DNA of 64,000 nt, taken from contig NZ_JAHKSH010000006.1 of the NCBI RefSeq assembly GCF_019720895.1, forward strand, positions 62,001 through 126,000, written 5' to 3'. This DNA comes from Microbacterium salitolerans. Lineage in GTDB: Bacteria > Actinomycetota > Actinomycetes > Actinomycetales > Microbacteriaceae. Made by a program: the position numbers and the translations under genes. The notes under the pieces are model-generated. The model was not told the origin of the DNA and did no database searches. It saw nothing but the letters and a program-made list of their open reading frames with translations. This document shows positions 2,707-12,666 of this stretch, in pieces. Numbering within the stretch: the first letter of the stretch is position 1; each line of letters begins with the position of its first letter.

Positions 2707-2834
2707 GTGCTCACGGTAGGACTCTCCTCGTCGACTGCCAAGTACCCTGGGCCATTGATTCGATGCGCACGACGAGACAGCGCACATCCGCAGCGGACCC
2801 GGTCGATCGGGCCCGCCCCCCTCACGGAGCCACG

Positions 2835-3452
2835 ATGATCCCCGCCCTCGAGACCGTGCTGCGCTGCGTCGAGGCCGATGCGTTCGCCGGGCTGTTCGAC
2901 GAGTGGGGCTGGTCGACCGTGGTCGATGAGCACGTCGGCGCGCCGGTCGTCGAACGGGATCTGTTCGAGAAGCTCCATGACACAGCGGGCATCACAACCG
3001 ACTTTCCGATCGGCAACGCCGGGGTCGTCCATGTCTACGGCTACCTCTTCTCGACCGTGGCGACCCCGCACGGCTACAAGCGGGACCGGTGGAACGACGG
3101 CATCCTCGCGCGCACTCTCGGGCTGCCGAGCGGCGCCTTCCGCCTGGGCGACAGCACCGAGGAGACGTCGCTGCAGCGGGTGACGGACGCCGCGCTTCCC
3201 CTACTGCTCGCTCCGCCCGCTGACGCCGCGGGGGTCATCGATCAGTGCGTCGACGGCGCGACGACCCGCGCCGTCGTGACGTGTCCGTCACCCGACGGCT
3301 CCGGGGCCCTCATCTCGGGGATCGACACGGGCCGCGGGTTCCGCCTCATCACGGCGTTCCCCGTGGCCGACGCGCGCGCCTTCGCGCGCGCAGCCGCCGC
3401 GCAGCCCCCGCGGCTGCGCTGGAACGCGGCACGAGCTCCGTTCGACGCCTGA
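2835..3452 (+). CDS. Hypothetical cytosolic protein
   Basis: A 205-residue soluble protein with no signal peptide or membrane segment. It begins MIPALETVLRCVEADAF and contains a conserved-looking stretch, HVYGYLFSTVATPHGYKRDR, near residue 65. I do not recognise the family. The ATG at 2835 has GGAG seven bases upstream and is preferred over an upstream in-frame ATG at 2763. The gene stands alone, about 240 bases before the catabolic cluster and in the same direction. The C-terminus is Ala/Arg-rich. Confidence 0.55.
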   Translation: MIPALETVLRCVEADAFAGLFDEWGWSTVVDEHVGAPVVERDLFEKLHDTAGITTDFPIGNAGVVHVYGYLFSTVATPHGYKRDRWNDGILARTLGLPSGAFRLGDSTEETSLQRVTDAALPLLLAPPADAAGVIDQCVDGATTRAVVTCPSPDGSGALISGIDTGRGFRLITAFPVADARAFARAAAAQPPRLRWNAARAPFDA

Positions 3453-3689: not shown

Positions 3690-5060
3690 ATGAAGAGATT
3701 CACCGTGACCGTCGTCGGCCTGGGTGAAGTCGGATCCGTGTTCAGCGAGGCACTGGCCTCCGTCGATCACCACGTCTACGGCTTCGACCCGTTCACGGAC
3801 GTCACACCGACGGGAGTCGAGCGTGTGCACGCTCTGGCGGATTGTGTGGGCGGGTCAGACGCGGTACTCGTCGCCACGTCGGCCTCGACGGCCGTGCGGA
3901 TCGCGGCAGACGTGGCCCCCTTCGCGCACGATCGTCTGACGTATATCGACCTCAATGCGGCGCATCCAGATATCAAGCGTCAGGTGCAGGCGTTGCTCCC
4001 GGAGAAGACGCACCTCGTCGACGGAGCGATTCTCGGATCGATCAGGAAGTTCGGCGCGCGCGCCCGAATCCTCCTCTCCGGCGCGGAGACGTCTGAGGCG
4101 GTCGCGCTGCTCGACACGCTCGGCGGCGAAGTCGAGGTCGTCGGTGAGCAGGTCGGCGATGCCTCGACCATGAAACTCGTACGATCGGCATTCATGAAGA
4201 CCCTCGGCGCATCGATCGTCGAGGCGATTGACGCGGGCCGCGAGCTCGACGTCGAGAGCTGGGTTCGCGGCGAGATCGCGCGCGAGCTGACGGACGGTGC
4301 CGCAGGTGCGGAGCGGCTGTACGACGGCACGCGCACCCATGCGGTCCGCCGATCCGTCGAGGCGACGGCGGCGGCCGATCTCCTGACGTCCCGCGGGATC
4401 GACGCGACGATGGCCTCCGCCACCGCGAGGAAGACAGCGATCTCAGGACTTGAGGTGAACAGTGGCGGCGCACTCTCGGAGCTCGGCTCACTTCCCGTCG
4501 CGAACGTCGGCGACGCACTCGATCGTCACACAGGGATCCTGCCACCTCAGATCTCGCGGCGTTCTGGCGAGGGCATCGTTGTGGGACGCGCGCTGACGAT
4601 CGAATGCACCGCAGGGAGCAATGATGCGCTTCACCGCGCTCTGCAGATCGCACGGTCGGGCGACTTCCTCGTGGTGTCGGCCCGAACGACACCGGATCGC
4701 GCCATGCTCGGAGAGCTCATCGGTTTCCGCAGCCAGGCGGCGGGCGTCGTCGGCCTGATCGTCGACGGCGCCATCCGCGACGTCGACGATCTTCAGCAGG
4801 CCGGAATCTCCACGTGGTCGACAGCCGTGACGCCTGCGGGCCCGTACAAGACATCTGGCGGACATGTCGGCAGGCCCATCGCGATCGGCTCCGTCGTCAT
4901 TCAGACCGGTGACATCGTCGTGGCGGACGACGACGGCATCATGGTTCTCGCACCGACCGATGTCCCCGATGCCGCGGCAGGCGCACGCCGCGTCGCGGAC
5001 GAAGAGCAGCGCCGCCGCGCGTCGATCACGGGCGCGATCGCCCACAGCAGCGAGGACTGA
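3690..5060 (+). CDS. Fused NAD(P)-dependent dehydrogenase and RraA-type aldolase
   Basis: Two enzymes appear joined in 456 residues. Residues 1 to about 260 form a beta-hydroxyacid dehydrogenase-like half. It has a Rossmann VVGLGEVGSVF motif at 8-18, a GDASTMKLVRSAF stretch containing the expected catalytic lysine, and a helical DUF1932-like part. Residues from about 268 to 450 match the RraA/HMG-CHA aldolase family: VDGAIRDVDD carries the Arg-Asp substrate and metal residues, followed by GDIVVADDDGIMVLAP. Known RraA-like enzymes cleave 4-hydroxy-2-oxo acids to pyruvate or decarboxylate oxaloacetate. The fusion suggests sequential oxidation and cleavage of one hydroxy acid, but the substrate is unknown. 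A TRAP permease gene follows after five bases. Confidence 0.85.
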   Translation: MKRFTVTVVGLGEVGSVFSEALASVDHHVYGFDPFTDVTPTGVERVHALADCVGGSDAVLVATSASTAVRIAADVAPFAHDRLTYIDLNAAHPDIKRQVQALLPEKTHLVDGAILGSIRKFGARARILLSGAETSEAVALLDTLGGEVEVVGEQVGDASTMKLVRSAFMKTLGASIVEAIDAGRELDVESWVRGEIARELTDGAAGAERLYDGTRTHAVRRSVEATAAADLLTSRGIDATMASATARKTAISGLEVNSGGALSELGSLPVANVGDALDRHTGILPPQISRRSGEGIVVGRALTIECTAGSNDALHRALQIARSGDFLVVSARTTPDRAMLGELIGFRSQAAGVVGLIVDGAIRDVDDLQQAGISTWSTAVTPAGPYKTSGGHVGRPIAIGSVVIQTGDIVVADDDGIMVLAPTDVPDAAAGARRVADEEQRRRASITGAIAHSSED

Positions 5061-6419: not shown

Positions 6420-6656
6420 GTGAACACTGTCAGACGCACCGTCTTCGTCATCTTCTGCGCTTGCACAGCGCTCTTCCTCACCGCAGCGACGCTGCTCGTC
6501 GCGTTGCAGGTGGCGGGGTTCCTCGCGTTGTCGGGCTCACTCGTATCAGGAGCGAACTCGGCCCTGATGCCGTGGACGCTCTACCTGGCCATCGGCATGG
6601 GCGGCTCCGGCTTCGCGTACTCCTACCTGCTCCCGGCGACGAGCGATCAGGAGTGA
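6420..6656 (+). CDS. Small two-helix membrane protein, possible permease partner
   Basis: A 78-residue protein with membrane segments at about 5-33 and 47-70. It starts at GTG 6420 after a GAAAGG ribosome site, 13 bases beyond the TRAP permease. TRAP systems normally have a four-helix DctQ small subunit. This gene sits where dctQ would be expected but is half the size and I recognise no DctQ motif. It could be a reduced small subunit or an unrelated accessory protein. It is the last gene of the operon, converging on the IclR gene. Confidence 0.6.
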   Translation: MNTVRRTVFVIFCACTALFLTAATLLVALQVAGFLALSGSLVSGANSALMPWTLYLAIGMGGSGFAYSYLLPATSDQE

Positions 6657-6699: not shown

Positions 6700-7458
6700 T
6701 CAGCCGACGAGGTTCACGCTGAGCGCGTGCGCGAGGTTCTGCAGCGACGGGACGAGTTCGACGATGCGATCACGCGACACGGCACGCTGAGGCCCCGATG
6801 CCGACAGCGCGTAGAGCGGGAGCCCTCGCTCCGACGCCGGGGCAGGCAGGGTCACGGCGATCGCGAGGATCCCCGCGACGCGCTCGCCCTCAGACAGGCT
6901 GAATCCCTGATCTCGCGCGTCACCGATGCGTGCGCGAATATCGTCGATCGTGGTGCTGTCGGGCTCGTGACCCAACGTGCGGGCGTCGGCGAGAACCGAG
7001 GCGATCTCCGAGTCGTCCTCAGCCGCGAGCAGGATCTTGCCCGCTCCGCGCGTGAGAGGCATGAGCTTGCCGAGCTGGAGACGATACGGCAGGTCTTCCT
7101 CGCCCTCGACCCTCGCAACGAGAATCCGCTCGCTGCCGTGACGCACGTACAGAGAGGCGGTGAGCCCCGTTGAGCGCGCGAACCTCTCGAGCTCCGGCGC
7201 AGCGACGCGTCGGACAGGGTCATTGTCGAGAAAGCTCTGCGCCATCGGGGCGGCCATCTCGCCGATCGCGTAACGTCGCCGGGTCTGTCTCACCATCGCG
7301 AACGCCTCGAGCGTGTGCAGGATGCGCTTCGCCGTCGATGGCGTGAGTGACGAGCGTTCGGCCACCTCGGACAAGCTCAGCGGGTGAGCCGACCTCGTGA
7401 GCACTTCGATCACCGACAGTGCTCGCGACAGCGATCTCATCTCGTTGCGTTCTGCCAA
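6700..7458 (-). CDS. IclR family transcriptional regulator
   Basis: A 252-residue regulator. A winged-helix HTH lies in residues 7-65 (LSLSEVAERSSLTPSTAKRI), followed by the IclR effector domain from about 75 to 250, with LTRGAGKILLAA and GFSLSEGERVAGILAIAV as typical blocks. It converges on the TRAP/dehydrogenase-aldolase operon and is likely its controller, responding to the imported acid or a breakdown product (inference). Length is normal for the family. Its own promoter lies in the 160-base gap shared with the HAD/phosphonate operon. Confidence 0.88.
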   Translation of the reverse strand: MAERNEMRSLSRALSVIEVLTRSAHPLSLSEVAERSSLTPSTAKRILHTLEAFAMVRQTRRRYAIGEMAAPMAQSFLDNDPVRRVAAPELERFARSTGLTASLYVRHGSERILVARVEGEEDLPYRLQLGKLMPLTRGAGKILLAAEDDSEIASVLADARTLGHEPDSTTIDDIRARIGDARDQGFSLSEGERVAGILAIAVTLPAPASERGLPLYALSASGPQRAVSRDRIVELVPSLQNLAHALSVNLVG

Positions 7459-7586
7459 AGCTCGCCTTTCCCACGCGTTCGACCAGTCTATCGACGCGCC
7501 ACCGTCGCTTCGGTGCCCGAGGAGCCGGCGCGCGACACCGGATGTTCACCCAACCGTGACCCATCCGTTCACGCACTCCCCATACG

Positions 7587-7603
7587 GTGGACGCATCGTC
7601 CAC
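7587..7603. promoter_or_regulatory. Perfect palindrome in the leader of the phn operon (RpiR operator candidate)
   Basis: GTGGACG (7587-7593), CAT, CGTCCAC (7597-7603) is a perfect 17-base palindrome. It ends just before the ribosome site of the HAD gene. The operon ends with an RpiR-type regulator, so autoregulation through this site is the simplest reading (inference). Confidence 0.5.
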
Positions 7604-7620
7604 AACAGCGAGGAGAACGC

Positions 7621-8301
7621 GTGACATCGACGATCGTCTTCGACTTCGACGGCACGGTCGCCGTCGGAAACGGCCCCGTGCTCGCCTATGCGCGCGAGGT
7701 CGCCCCGCACGTCGGCGGCGACTACCTCGTCCGTGTCGACGCAGAGCTCGCAGCCTTCGACGATGGCGTCGACACGACGTTCCGCGACGGATACGACGTC
7801 GTCGGCTCGCTCGCGACCGACGCGGGGCTGGACCCCGAGACGCGGCAGCGCGCGTATCTCGCGAGCCGCGGATCCCTCGCCTCCTCCGGCGCCGAGCCCG
7901 CCCCCGGCCTCGTCGACCTGCTGCGCGCACTCCCCGACCGCACGCGCGTCGTGCTCGCGACGAACGCTCCCCGCGACGGAATCGACGAGACCCTCGCCGC
8001 GTGGGGTCTGGGAGACGCGTTCGACGAGATCCGCGACAGCGTCGGCAAGCCCGCCGGCCTGACCGCCCTCGTGCGCGATGCCCTCCGGAGAGGACCGGTC
8101 CTCGCCGTCGGCGACATCGTCGAGAACGACATCGCGCCCGCGGCGGCCCTCGGCGCCGACACCGCACTCGTCGGCGCCACGGCTGCCGCGTCGCCCGCCG
8201 ACGTCACGATGCGCGCACCGATGCTCGCGGACCTCGCCCCCGCGATCCTCGCGTGGGCCCGCCGTGCGGATGACCGCGACCCGGCTTCCCCAACCCCCTG
8301 A
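7621..8301 (+). CDS. HAD-family phosphatase in phosphonate-type operon
   Basis: A 226-residue haloacid dehalogenase-like hydrolase. Motif I is FDFDGTVA (residues 7-14) with both catalytic aspartates, and motif IV is AVGDIVENDIAPA. A small helical cap lies in between, as in phosphoglycolate or beta-phosphoglucomutase-type members. The PhnX signature of true phosphonatases is not evident. The GTG start at 7621 follows GAGGAG. It is the first gene of the operon that encodes a phosphonate-type importer, so it may dephosphorylate the imported organophosphorus compound (inference). Confidence 0.8.
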   Translation: MTSTIVFDFDGTVAVGNGPVLAYAREVAPHVGGDYLVRVDAELAAFDDGVDTTFRDGYDVVGSLATDAGLDPETRQRAYLASRGSLASSGAEPAPGLVDLLRALPDRTRVVLATNAPRDGIDETLAAWGLGDAFDEIRDSVGKPAGLTALVRDALRRGPVLAVGDIVENDIAPAAALGADTALVGATAAASPADVTMRAPMLADLAPAILAWARRADDRDPASPTP

Positions 8302-8342
8302 CCCCCCCGCAGCACCCCCTCTCTGGAAAGGCGACACCCGAC

Positions 8343-9344
8343 ATGCGCACGAAGACCCTCCTCGCGACCGGCGCCGCCGCGACGCTCGCTCTCGGCCTCG
8401 CCGGCTGCAGCGCCGGTGACGACGCCGCAGCAGACGGCGAATGGCCCGAGTCGATCACGATCTCGCTCGTCCCCTCCGTCGAGGGCGAGGACCTCGCGGA
8501 GGCGCTCGACCCGCTCTCGTCGTACCTCGCGGACGGCCTCGGCATCGAGGTCACGGGCACGGTCGCCACCAACTACGCGGCGACGGTCGAAGCACTCGGC
8601 GCCGACCAGGCCCAGGTCATCATCACCGACGCCGGATCCCTGTACCAGGCGACGGAGCAGTACGACGCCGACCTCATCCTGCGCGACGTGCGCTTCGGCG
8701 CGACGTCGTACGCGGCGGTCGCCTACACGAACGACCCCGACACGTACTGCGAGGACGAGCCGGTGATGTCGATGTACGACGCCAGCGACATCGAGCTGTC
8801 GTACTGCAACGGCCTCGAGGAGGACGGCGCCTCGGCGACGGGCCAGGGACCGAAGGGCATCGAGATGCTCGCGGAGGCCGACGGCGCGAAGGTCGCGCTG
8901 CAGGCCGCCACGTCGCCCGCCGGGTACCAGTACCCGGTCGTCGCGATGCGCGAGCAGGGCCTCGACACCGACGCCGACATCGAGCAGATCCCCGTCGAGG
9001 GCAACAACAACGCCGTTCTCGCGGTCGCGAACGGCGACGCCGAAGTCGGCTTCGCCTACTGGGACGCCCGGACGACCGTCTCGGAGGAGGTCCCCGACAT
9101 CGCCGAGAAGGCGGTCGCCTTCGCCTACACCGAGATGATCCCGAACGGCGGCGTCGCCGCGTCGAGCGCGCTGCCCGACGACCTCACCGCCGAGCTCACG
9201 ACGCTCATGGACGAGTACGCCGATTCGTCCGACGAGGCCGCCGACGTCATGTTCGACCTCGTCGGACTGTCGGACTGGACCGACGAGACGGCCGAAGACG
9301 AGATCACCCGCTACGGCGAGATCCTCGAGCAGTTCGCCGGCTGA
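8343..9344 (+). CDS. phnD: Phosphonate-type ABC transporter substrate-binding lipoprotein
   Basis: A 333-residue lipoprotein with a lipobox, LGLAGCSA (lipidated Cys about residue 22), and a PhnD-like periplasmic-binding fold ([54 protein letters not shown]). It should capture a phosphonate, phosphite or similar oxyanion at the cell surface. The rest of the protein is unusually acidic, with many Asp and Glu and few Lys, which fits an exported protein of a salt-exposed organism. It is followed at once by the ATPase and two permease genes. The exact ligand cannot be read off. Confidence 0.85.
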
Positions 9345-9364
9345 TCCACGGAGCACACCGCGCA

Positions 9365-10192
9365 ATGACCTCTGACGCGCCCCGCGCGGAGGCCGGGTTC
9401 GCCCCGGCCTCCGCCTCCTGGCCGATCCGCCTCGACGGCGTCTCGGTCACGTATCCGAACGGCACCGCCGCACTCCGCGACGTCTCGCTCGCAATCGAGC
9501 CCGGCGAGATGGTGTCGGTCGTCGGCCTCTCCGGATCCGGGAAGTCGACCCTGATCCGCACGATCAACGGCCTCGTGCCGGTGACGAGCGGATCCGTCCA
9601 GGTCGGCCCGCACGCCGTCTCCGGCCTCGGCGGGCGGCGCCTGCGCGAGCTGCGCGGGCGCGTCGGCATGATCTTCCAGGGCTTCAACCTGGCCGAGCGC
9701 GTCGATGTCTACCGCAATACGCTCGTCGGGCGCTTCGCCCGCGCGGGCGCGCTGCGCACGCTGCTCGGGATCTCCTCAGCCGAGGACCGCGAGATCGCCC
9801 TGCGCGCCCTCGACGCGGTCGGCATGCTCGACAAGGTCTGGACGCGGGCGGGATCCCTGTCTGGCGGCCAGAAGCAGCGCGTCGCGATCGCGCGGGCCCT
9901 GTCTCAGGACCCCCGCGTGATGCTGGCCGACGAGCCCGTGGCGAGCCTGGATCCGCCCACGGCGCACGCCGTGATGGCCGAGCTCGTCGCGCTCGGCGCC
10001 GAGCGCGGGCTCACGGTGCTCGTCAACCTGCACCTCATGGATCTCGCCCGTGACTACACGACGCGCATGATCGGCCTGCGTGCGGGCGAGCTCGTCTACG
10101 ACGGACCCGCGGCAGACGCGACCGACGCCGACTTCGAGGAGATCTACGGCCGCCGGATCCGCCCGGAGGACCGGCTGGGAGCGACCGCGTGA
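9365..10192 (+). CDS. phnC: Phosphonate-type ABC transporter ATPase
   Basis: A 275-residue ABC ATPase of the PhnC type. Walker [10 protein letters not shown] is at about 54-62, the signature LSGGQKQR near 158, and Walker [13 protein letters not shown] follows. The [19 protein letters not shown] region is characteristic of PhnC proteins. It powers uptake through the two PhnE permeases. The ATG at 9365 is 20 bases after phnD, and the stop overlaps the phnE start by four bases (GTGA), indicating translational coupling. Confidence 0.92.
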
Positions 10193-10986
10193 CGGATCTC
10201 GCCGTCCCGCCGCGCCCGCGCACGTGGCCGCGCACAGCGGTCGCGGCCGCGTGCTTCGCGCTGTTCACGGTGCTCACGTGCCTCCCTGCGATCGGCGGCG
10301 TCGAGCTCGACTTCGCGTCGATCGCCCGCAACTGGCGCAACGGCGCCGACAAGATGCTGCAGCTGCTGCAGCCCGACTGGGCGTTCCTCCCGCGCACCCT
10401 GCAGCCGATGCTCGAGACGCTACAGATGGCGCTCGTCGGCGCCGCCGCGGCGGCGGTCGTGTCGGTCCCCCTCACGCTCTGGGCCGCGCGTCCGACGAAC
10501 CCGAATGCGCTCTCGCGCGGGATCGTCCGGGCGATCATCAACGTCATCCGCTCGGTGCCCGATCTCGTCTACGCGACGATCCTCGTCGCGCTCGTCGGCG
10601 TCGGCGCCCTGCCCGGCCTGCTCACGCTGTTCCTCTTCGACATCGGCATCGTCGTCAAGCTCGTCTCCGAGGCGATCGACTCGCACGAGCACCCGTATCT
10701 CGAGGCAGGCCGCGCGGCGGGCGCGACGCAGGGGCGCCTCAACCGCAGCCTCGCGCTCCCGCAGAGCCTTCCCCTGTTCGCGAACCAGTGGCTGTACGCG
10801 CTCGAGCTCAACGTGCGCATCTCGGCGATCCTCGGCATCGTCGGGGCGGGCGGCATCGGGCGCCTGCTCGACGAGCGCTTCGGTTTCTACGCGTACGACG
10901 ACGTGTCGATCATCATCCTCGAGATCCTCGTCGTGGTGATCCTCATCGAGGTGTTCTCGAACTGGCTGCGGAGGAGGCTCACATGA
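10189..10986 (+). CDS. phnE: Phosphonate-type ABC transporter permease 1
   Basis: A 265-residue inner-membrane permease with about six hydrophobic segments and the EAA loop ([20 protein letters not shown]) that docks the ATPase. The [19 protein letters not shown] and [13 protein letters not shown] stretches are PhnE hallmarks. It overlaps phnC by four bases upstream and the second phnE by four bases downstream. Confidence 0.9.
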
Positions 10987-11825
10987 CCCGCACCGCACTC
11001 ACCCGCCAGACGGGCCTCGATCTTCCCGCCCCGCCGTCACGCGTGGTCCCCACGGTGGCCGCGATCGTCGTCGGCGCCGTGATCGTCGCCGCCACCGCGG
11101 GCATGGGAATCGACTGGTCGAAGCTGCTCGACCTGCCCCGAGCGATCGGCGAGTACGGCGCGCTGATGTTCGCGGATCCGGCGTGGGACAAGCTGCCCCG
11201 AGCCCTGTTCGAGATGTGGCGGTCGATCTCGATGGCCTGGCTCGGCGCGATCGGCTGCGTCGTGCTCTCGATCCCCCTCGGCATGCTCGCGGCGCACGAC
11301 GTCTCCCCCGCGTGGCTGCGGGCGCTCCTCCGTGGGGTGTTCGCCATCATCCGCGCCGTGCCCGAGGTCATCATCGCGCTCATCCTCCTCACCGTCACGG
11401 GCCTCACCCCGTTCACGGGGGCGCTCGCCCTCGCGATCGCCGGCATCGGCACGCAGGGAAAGTGGGTGTACGAGACGATCGAGTCGCTCGACGCGAGCAC
11501 CTCGGAGGCCGTGCGCGCGGCCGGGGGCGGGCGTCTCGCCGTGCTGCGCTGGGCCCTCTGGCCGGCGGCGCTGCCGTCGCTCATGTCCTTCGCGCTGTAC
11601 CGCTTCGAGATCAACATCCGCACGTCGGCCGTCCTGGGCCTCGTCGGCGCGGGCGGGATCGGAAGCATGCTGTCGAACTACACGAACTATCGTGAGTGGT
11701 CGGTGGTGGGCATGCTGCTCATCGTCGTCATCGCGGCGACGATGATCATCGACGCCGTCTCGGGCGCCCTGCGCCGCCGCATCATGGAAGGACCGCGACG
11801 CCGTGGCATGGACCGGATCCGCTGA
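10983..11825 (+). CDS. phnE: Phosphonate-type ABC transporter permease 2
   Basis: A second PhnE-like permease of 280 residues with its own EAA loop (TSEAVRAAGGGRLAVLRWAL) and GAGGIGSMLSNYTN end motif. Two different PhnE subunits usually form a heterodimer in systems of this arrangement. It starts inside the stop of the first permease gene (ATGA) and its 3' end overlaps the regulator gene by 23 bases, so all five transport and control genes are tightly coupled. Confidence 0.9.
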   Translation: MTRTALTRQTGLDLPAPPSRVVPTVAAIVVGAVIVAATAGMGIDWSKLLDLPRAIGEYGALMFADPAWDKLPRALFEMWRSISMAWLGAIGCVVLSIPLGMLAAHDVSPAWLRALLRGVFAIIRAVPEVIIALILLTVTGLTPFTGALALAIAGIGTQGKWVYETIESLDASTSEAVRAAGGGRLAVLRWALWPAALPSLMSFALYRFEINIRTSAVLGLVGAGGIGSMLSNYTNYREWSVVGMLLIVVIAATMIIDAVSGALRRRIMEGPRRRGMDRIR

Positions 11826-12666
11826 CGCCCCTCCCACCGCGCGGATCGTCGCGCTCGCGCCATCGCTTCACCAGGGCGAGCGGCGCGTCGCCGAGGCGGT
11901 CGCGGCAGATCTCGGCGCAACCGTCGAGCGCACCGCCCAGGAGGTCGCCGACGCCGTGGGCGTGGGACGCGCGACGGTCGTGCGAACGGCCCAGACCCTC
12001 GGGTACGACGGGTATCCGCAGCTACGCGTCGCCGTCGCCCGAGAGCTCGCGCTCCAGACCTCGTCGGGCGACCTCGCCGCCGACGGCACGATGCTCGGCA
12101 CCCTGCGCGCCGCGAGCGACCGCTTCGCGGCACGCCTCGGGCACACCCTGTCGGGCCTGACGGAGGAGGCGCTGCAGGAGTTCATCGCCTCCCTCGACGA
12201 CGCCGCGCGCGTGCTCGTCGTCGCGAACGGGCTCTCGTCGCCGCTCGGCCTCGACCTGCTCCTGCGCCTCAACGCCGCTGGCCGTCCGGCCGAGCTGCTG
12301 AACGACCCGCTCGCCCAGCGCATCGCGGCGCGCCAGCTCGGGAGCGGATCCGTCTGCCTCGTGCTGTCGGGATCCGGCGCGAACGACGAGACGCTGTCCG
12401 TCATGAGCGCGGCGCAGCAGAGCGGATCCGAACTGCTCGCGATCACCTCCTTCGCCCGCTCCCCCGTCGCACACCTCGCCGATACGGTGCTCATCGTGCC
12501 GCCCGTGAACGACTCGTTCCGCGACGAGCTCGTGCACACCTCGCGCGCCGCGCTGATGCTCGTGACCGAGGCGCTCGTCGACGCTCTCCTCACCCGCCGC
12601 GGCGAGCGCGGACGCGACGCGCGCGCGGCCGTGCTGCAGGTGCTGGGCGCCTCGATCCGGGAGTAG
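11803..12666 (+). CDS. MurR/RpiR family regulator
   Basis: A 287-residue regulator with an N-terminal HTH_6 domain (QEVADAVGVGRATVVRTAQT, about residues 46-66) and a C-terminal SIS sugar-phosphate sensing domain (RVLVVANGLSSPLGLDLLLR through VCLVLSGSGANDETLSVMSA). The GTG at 11803 follows GGAAGGA and overlaps the permease gene. Phosphonate genes are more often controlled by PhnF-type GntR proteins, so an RpiR partner suggests the signal is a phosphorylated metabolite. The palindrome at 7587-7603 is its candidate operator. Confidence 0.85.
   Translation: MAWTGSADAPPTARIVALAPSLHQGERRVAEAVAADLGATVERTAQEVADAVGVGRATVVRTAQTLGYDGYPQLRVAVARELALQTSSGDLAADGTMLGTLRAASDRFAARLGHTLSGLTEEALQEFIASLDDAARVLVVANGLSSPLGLDLLLRLNAAGRPAELLNDPLAQRIAARQLGSGSVCLVLSGSGANDETLSVMSAAQQSGSELLAITSFARSPVAHLADTVLIVPPVNDSFRDELVHTSRAALMLVTEALVDALLTRRGERGRDARAAVLQVLGASIRE

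Follow-up and report, generated by a model that had tools for sequence, protein, structure and literature searches.

A recurrent dehydrogenase–RraA-type fusion with a DctM-type permease in Microbacterium salitolerans and other Actinobacteria: a predicted bifunctional catabolic enzyme

The fused gene and its domains

A 64,000-nucleotide stretch of the Microbacterium salitolerans genome (contig NZ_JAHKSH010000006.1, positions 62,001 to 126,000; hereafter ‘the window’) encodes a single-chain fusion of a DUF1932-type dehydrogenase and an RraA-type domain resembling HMG/CHA aldolases, followed by a permease, a small membrane protein and a regulator (Table 1). The fused frame runs from ATG to TGA over 456 codons without an internal stop. 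Three Pfam families match above their cut-offs, NAD_binding_2 at residues 6-134 (22.1 bits, cut-off 21), DUF1932 (PF09130) at residues 185-248 (30.9 bits, gathering cut-off 25) and RraA-like (PF03737) at residues 271-419 (120.8 bits, gathering cut-off 24.5), which places the halves in the DUF1932 family and the RraA superfamily, respectively. Both domains are complete by profile and by fold and keep their key residues; the dehydrogenase half has the Rossmann plus helical domain of beta-hydroxyacid dehydrogenases (beta-HADs). A first-pass annotation, made from the sequence alone, had described one 456-codon frame with two intact halves, a VDGAIRD active-site block and a permease within five bases, and had proposed a domain search; all of this holds, with the block at residues 358-364 and the permease open reading frame (ORF) starting five bases past the fusion stop.

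Table 1. Features of the fusion operon and its regulator gene in the window
Feature	Position	Strand	Evidence and details
Fused gene, DUF1932-type dehydrogenase + RraA/HMG-CHA-type aldolase	3690..5060	+	456 aa; Pfam, two-profile scan
Dehydrogenase domain	3702..4433	+	GLGEVG nucleotide loop, D33, K162, K170
RraA/aldolase domain	4464..5042	+	R279, N311, E342, R363-D364, G384-P385-Y386-K387, E439
DctM-family permease, 446 aa	5066..6406	+	Pfam PF06808 6e-50
Small membrane protein, 78 aa, GTG start	6420..6656	+	Two hydrophobic segments (simple hydropathy count)
IclR-family regulator	6700..7458	-	PF01614 3.3e-23, PF09339 3.2e-12; convergent with operon

Recurrence and ancestry of the fusion

The survey of occurrence that the first-pass annotation called for found the fusion to be recurrent across actinobacteria. 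A two-profile locus scan returned 33 single-frame fusions including that of the window; three are genomes present in two collections, leaving 30 distinct cases. All 29 further distinct fusions come from the window’s own class or from named Actinomycetota. The order sample (396 genomes) contained 14 nearly full-length matches in 13 genomes, and the class sample (394 genomes) 10 in 10 genomes (own genome included in each); homologues other than the window’s own share 37-45% identity with it. The phylum sample (396 genomes) gave 12 genomes with a match at E 1e-60, of which only two (own included) matched over both halves. The family sample (299 genomes) contained a both-half match in the own genome only, and none of 17 other genomes of the same genus reached E 1e-35 (among the matches listed for the order sample). 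Scanning named species with the alignment as query gave at least ten fused loci, a lower bound from which no frequency follows; among the matches listed these belong to Marinactinospora, two Rhodococcus, Nocardiopsis, Mycolicibacterium, Streptomyces, Rothia, Pseudonocardia, Actinokineospora and Mycobacterium. The Marinactinospora, Nocardiopsis and Rothia loci share their coordinates with genomes of the earlier samples (G867, G712 and G482). A scan of named-species contigs with the single protein as query yielded 97 pattern stretches and no relative, and the VIA list contained single-domain matches only. On plasmids, no fusion was seen in the nine loci inspected, which were taken from 40 listed of 735 matching records; the nearest cases among them are in Arthrobacter (L033, unfused) and Shinella (L034, one frame interrupted by a stop).

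Nearly full-length homologues in other genomes exclude chance and error. The possibility that a sequencing or assembly error had removed a stop codon between the halves, raised in the first-pass annotation as grounds for rejecting the fusion, is thus refuted by the 29 further distinct single-frame cases, which also group together in both domain trees. One genome (G537, locus L041) had shown a stop inside its match in the order-sample search, yet its two domains share one open frame in the two-profile scan.

Fused rows (30 distinct) fall on one side of a single branch in the dehydrogenase-domain tree (67 rows; SH-aLRT 99) and likewise in the RraA-domain tree (70 rows; SH-aLRT 99); both are quick, unrooted trees without bootstrap in which the window copy is a long branch. 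This grouping is most simply read as a single fusion event followed by co-evolution of the two halves. The window copy shares 37-44% identity with the other 22 aligned fused rows. Its changes near catalytic positions in the sequence are R161M, G171T and GPG-to-SGG at 389-391, and no catalytic position is lost. Given this divergence and the patchy distribution (1 of 299 genomes in the family), horizontal acquisition of the fusion is likely. The three operon genes have a G+C content of 0.667-0.672, compared with 0.702 for the window, but the desaturase gene upstream has an even lower value (0.645), and base composition supports acquisition only weakly.

The pairing of dehydrogenase and RraA genes predates the fusion, since unfused copies are neighbors in five phyla: in Bacillota (Mesobacillus, Ammoniphilus, Pelosinus, Priestia), Bacteroidota (Emticicia, Arcicella), Alphaproteobacteria (Rhizobium, Cereibacter, Shinella), Thermus and other actinobacteria. 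On the Shinella plasmid (L034:4311-6236) both genes share one frame and only a stop plus three bases lie between them; this natural near-fusion shows how the fusion could arise. In an unfused RraA-dehydrogenase-permease-cyclase operon on a plasmid of Arthrobacter sp. StoSoilB13 (L033:5731-6571), a frame change splits the RraA gene.

Catalytic residues of the dehydrogenase half

The closest PDB sequence relatives of the dehydrogenase half are the DUF1932-type structures 1i36 (MTH1747), 4ezb and 3qsg, which are of unknown function and themselves unfused to RraA. K162 and K170 align with lysines of all three (query L061), so that both conserved lysines are common to the group. D33, K162 and K170 are present in 23 of 23 aligned fused rows, as is G156, which together with K162 gives the helix motif of the catalytic lysine of beta-HADs. 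The invariant K162 is likely the acid/base of the predicted dehydrogenase, and D33 suggests a preference for NAD rather than NADP.

Classical beta-HADs have an SGG substrate-binding loop and an Asn four residues after the catalytic Lys. Neither feature occurs in the 23 aligned fused rows: the substrate loop is DGAxxGS (D111...G116-S117 in 23/23), and position 166 is Ser in 21 rows and Thr in two. The fusion differs in both respects from 3-hydroxyisobutyrate dehydrogenases (HIBADHs; 5y8m, 5je8), and the window protein has no HIBADH match, nor a match to any other NCBIfam beta-HAD model, at E 1e-3. The beta-hydroxyacid substrate implied by the name in the first-pass annotation is deduced from the fold; neither an SGG loop nor an NCBIfam match bears it out.

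Catalytic residues of the RraA half

Twelve positions of the RraA half are fixed in all 33 fused rows (30 distinct): R279, N311, E342, D359, R363, D364, G384, P385, Y386, D413, D415 and E439. Position 387 is Lys in 32 rows and Arg in one. The half aligns at 32% to the Pseudomonas putida HMG/CHA aldolase structure 3noj, with phmmer equivalences R363-D364 = R123-D124, R279 = R40, N311 = N71, H315 = H75, G384 = G144 and K387 = K147; E439 is by conservation the best candidate for E199, where phmmer places E438. The P. putida aldolase requires R123, binds its metal through D124 and E199, and also decarboxylates oxaloacetate through a common pyruvate enolate (PMC5065237). R363, D364 and E439, the probable counterparts of the catalytic Arg-Asp pair and metal-ligand Glu of class II pyruvate aldolases of the HMG/CHA type, are present in 33 of 33 fused rows. 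Retention of a class II pyruvate-aldolase/decarboxylase site is supported by these alignments, from which the activity itself is predicted. Loss of active-site residues, which the first-pass annotation had named as a possible objection, is not seen: every catalytic position is kept in the window copy.

Two substitutions separate the fusions from 3noj, whose D102 and T145 correspond to E342 and P385 in 33 of 33 fused rows; the substrate therefore probably differs. The RraA half, here fused to a dehydrogenase, also falls below the ligK/CHA equivalog cut-offs. We rejected the idea that an E342/GPYK signature marks RraA genes linked to a dehydrogenase, as Glu occurs in 30 of 42 linked and also in 50 of 79 unlinked RraA matches (a sample drawn by similarity, partly with short flanks).

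The permease and its small partner

The first-pass annotation called the downstream gene a TRAP permease. The large permease is indeed of the DctM family that TRAP transporters (DctPQM) share with the window operon; no DctP or DctQ match was found within 20 kb of the fusion in 21 genomes, as far as the contigs extend (only 6.5 kb for G537) and with TAXI-type binding proteins outside the search. A canonical TRAP system includes a four-transmembrane DctQ and a binding protein (PMC5812351). In the operon, a protein of about 80 residues with two hydrophobic segments follows the permease in place of DctQ, and the system is not a canonical TRAP transporter. At E 0.001, 11 of the 21 fusion genomes have a DctQ match somewhere (10 above cut-off), 10 have a DctP match and 10 have neither; the own genome has three of each, located elsewhere.

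The small gene of the window belongs to the operon set, though the first-pass annotation did not list it. Two profiles, both excluding the window sequence, detect it: one built from 12 other fused loci (6.7e-11), the other from 6 unfused loci (1.6e-8). Each profile gives 43 hits in 68 loci (seeds included), all directly 3' of a DctM gene and none elsewhere. The small gene is present in 30 of 30 fused loci, including one (L168) where a simpler ORF criterion had overlooked it and the profile found it, and in 11 of 11 unfused loci that carry the permease. Neither Pfam nor NCBIfam gives a match at E 0.1 for the window’s 78-residue protein, and among 19 members scanned no family matches more than one (best E 0.002). 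It is probably the partner of the DctM-like permease, and these proteins are possibly a new family of small subunits. Literature searches, with many subscription papers outside their coverage, returned no description of a DctM permease free of a binding protein. If the pairing is real, it would be a simpler carrier than the three-part TRAP system, used in several host genomes that lack both DctP and DctQ.

Gene neighborhoods of fused and unfused loci

We examined 68 loci, 30 fused and 38 unfused, and counted neighbors from profile hits; one stretch (L166) is just 6.5 kb long. Single-linkage clusters of neighbors include antisense frames, and only explicitly named clusters were used. In 29 of 30 fused loci the fusion is directly followed, on the same strand, by a DctM-type permease gene, whose frame is split in L083 and L168. 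The remaining locus, L164, holds the second fused copy of genome G472; there the other strand encodes the permease and the small protein, followed by a class III CoA-transferase gene. The fused copy of L164 (L056) is divergent, departing at 12 of 89 conserved positions. An IclR gene is found within the examined stretch of all 30 fused loci, a count without a chance control for a regulator that is common. Among unfused loci, a DctM-type permease occurs in 11 of 38 and a cyclase in 6 of 38.

A PF04199-type (cyclase-type) hydrolase gene, a cluster name tested on one member, accompanies the fusion in 13 of 30 loci but not in the window. We rejected this cyclase as an essential partner because of this count and because in the own genome it lies on another contig. 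Members of the class III CoA-transferase cluster occur in three fused and two unfused loci (four of five tested). Nocardiopsis (L076, G712) carries a second, unfused set of IclR, RraA, permease and dehydrogenase genes, accompanied by such a transferase and by a protein resembling citrate lyase; the best NCBIfam match of the latter, below cut-off, is RipC of itaconate degradation. Many carriers beside dehydrogenase/RraA pairs are of dicarboxylate or tricarboxylate types: DctM, TRAP, tripartite tricarboxylate (TTT) and CitMHS/citrate. This neighborhood context favors small hydroxy-dicarboxylates as candidate substrates.

Other genes flank the window operon. Upstream of the fusion lies a 229-residue ORF (2763-3452, +) without a Pfam or NCBIfam match. 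Adjoining the operon on the other side (7477-12666, +) are genes for a HAD hydrolase (PF00702) and a PhnD-type binding protein (TIGR01098, 124.1 bits, cut-off 112.05), together with ORFs that by eye resemble an ABC ATPase, two permeases and an RpiR-type regulator, making up a phosphonate/phosphite-type uptake set.

Proposed function and alternatives

On balance we lean towards a single-chain bifunctional catabolic enzyme, predicted to act on a small hydroxy-dicarboxylate by NAD-linked oxidation together with metal-dependent C-C cleavage or decarboxylation. The DctM-like permease would import a small hydroxy-(di)carboxylate, which the dehydrogenase half would oxidize to an oxo acid in an NAD-linked reaction with K162 as acid/base. 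The RraA half, as a divalent-metal pyruvate-enolate enzyme of the HMG/CHA type in which R363 would stabilize the enolate and D364 and E439 would be the metal ligands, would then break a C-C bond, either by beta-decarboxylation (compare oxaloacetate) or by retro-aldol cleavage, to give pyruvate or a pyruvate derivative; the two steps may be coupled without release of the intermediate. The IclR protein may regulate the operon, and the PF04199 hydrolase, where present, would probably open a lactone, ester or amide precursor.

Several observations weigh against this proposal. The window copy is among the most divergent fusions: its end branches, 1.44 in one tree and 1.31 in the other, are the longest of the fused rows. 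It differs at 20 of 94 positions that are otherwise conserved, whereas the other 22 rows differ at 0-12 of 83-89, and its specificity may therefore have changed. The AlphaFold model of the fusion has a pTM (predicted TM-score) of 0.58, which makes the interdomain arrangement unreliable. H315 is His in only 24 of 33 fused rows; with this variability, and with E342 and P385, the reaction need not be HMG/CHA cleavage, and the NCBIfam equivalogs for CHA aldolase proper are missed (ligK/PcmE, 98.9 bits against a cut-off of 304.5; PRK09262, 118.1 against 179). Some unfused pairs are accompanied by ABC or MFS carriers, and others cluster with ring-cleavage dioxygenase and PIG-L genes, where the two steps may be separate.

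A serious rival to the dehydrogenase-first order, which we nonetheless hold to be rather unlikely, is the reverse: the RraA half would cleave a 4-hydroxy-2-oxo acid into pyruvate and a semialdehyde or oxo acid, which the dehydrogenase half would then reduce with NADH. The pair GarL/GarR of the hexarate pathway, cleavage followed by reduction, is a precedent for this order. Against it, the best model E-values are only 6e-7 to 9e-10, with the window matching none at E 1e-3, and L-threonate dehydrogenase, oxidizing by name, also matches 5 of 20; the direction of the reaction is not fixed by sequence.

Less probable again is that the halves serve non-consecutive steps of one pathway and are fused merely for co-expression. 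The clusters of unfused pairs with PIG-L-type and ring-cleavage dioxygenase genes (Thermus L035; clusters 12 and 18) are in its favor, as an early dehydrogenase and a last-step CHA-type aldolase would be expected there, and so is the varying gene order of unfused loci (dehydrogenase-RraA, RraA-dehydrogenase, RraA-IclR-dehydrogenase). However, the PIG-L, dioxygenase and PrpF-like clusters (12, 18 and 20, the last named by eye) occur in 0 of 30 fused loci, where the recurrent set consists of a regulator, the enzyme, a carrier and the small protein, joined in 13 loci by a hydrolase, and could hardly accommodate intermediate steps.

We regard it as very improbable that the RraA half is a dehydratase/decarboxylase like FlDet, an RraA-like protein that acts on KDGR in an alginate degrader: this precedent is only 20% identical to HMG/CHA aldolase (PMC8563752), whereas the window’s RraA half aligns to 3noj with most of the listed catalytic positions kept. 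That it is a regulator of RNase E and no enzyme hardly merits consideration, given sub-cut-off scores for the RraA equivalogs (69.9 bits against 136; 35 against 241.25), catalytic residues that do not vary among the 33 fused rows and a neighborhood of catabolic type.

More tentatively than for the bifunctional enzyme itself, the NAD-dependent oxidative C-C lyase/decarboxylase in one chain, together with a two-part carrier free of a binding protein (DctM-type permease plus two-helix subunits of about 80 residues), might constitute an undescribed catabolic module. Literature searches, limited as above, gave no title or abstract beginning that describes the fusion or DUF1932 enzymes. With similar reserve, the one-chain enzyme could be compared to malic enzyme or 6-phosphogluconate dehydrogenase, as a modular equivalent assembled from two unrelated domains. 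The occurrence of the joined protein with the same type of carrier in other actinobacteria points to an unstudied pathway of nutrient breakdown. The fusion ties DUF1932 dehydrogenases and the large non-regulatory RraA group, both poorly assigned, to one pathway, and knowing the activity of one fusion protein could help to explain what the many pairs encoded apart in several phyla do.

Other RraA fusions

Neither domain family is new, and NCBIfam has models for two other RraA fusions: hexulose-6-phosphate synthase-RraA (PRK07028) and FAA-hydrolase-RraA (PRK12764) likewise carry an RraA-type domain C-terminal to a metabolic enzyme, the partner enzyme being different in the window fusion. No matching NCBIfam model spans both halves of the latter. 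The own genome encodes an FAA-hydrolase-RraA fusion (L003:517-2001, contig C14; 495 aa, PRK12764 812.6 bits, cut-off 444), behind which lies an ORF that by eye resembles a GntR-type regulator. It also has a stand-alone CHA-aldolase-like gene (L002, contig C15; PRK09262 307.4 bits, cut-off 179), flanked on one side by a PIG-L-type ORF (sub-cut-off BshB1 match) and on the other by an ORF that, by eye, we take to be PrpF/GalD-like; this is perhaps a gallate-type set apart from the fusion.
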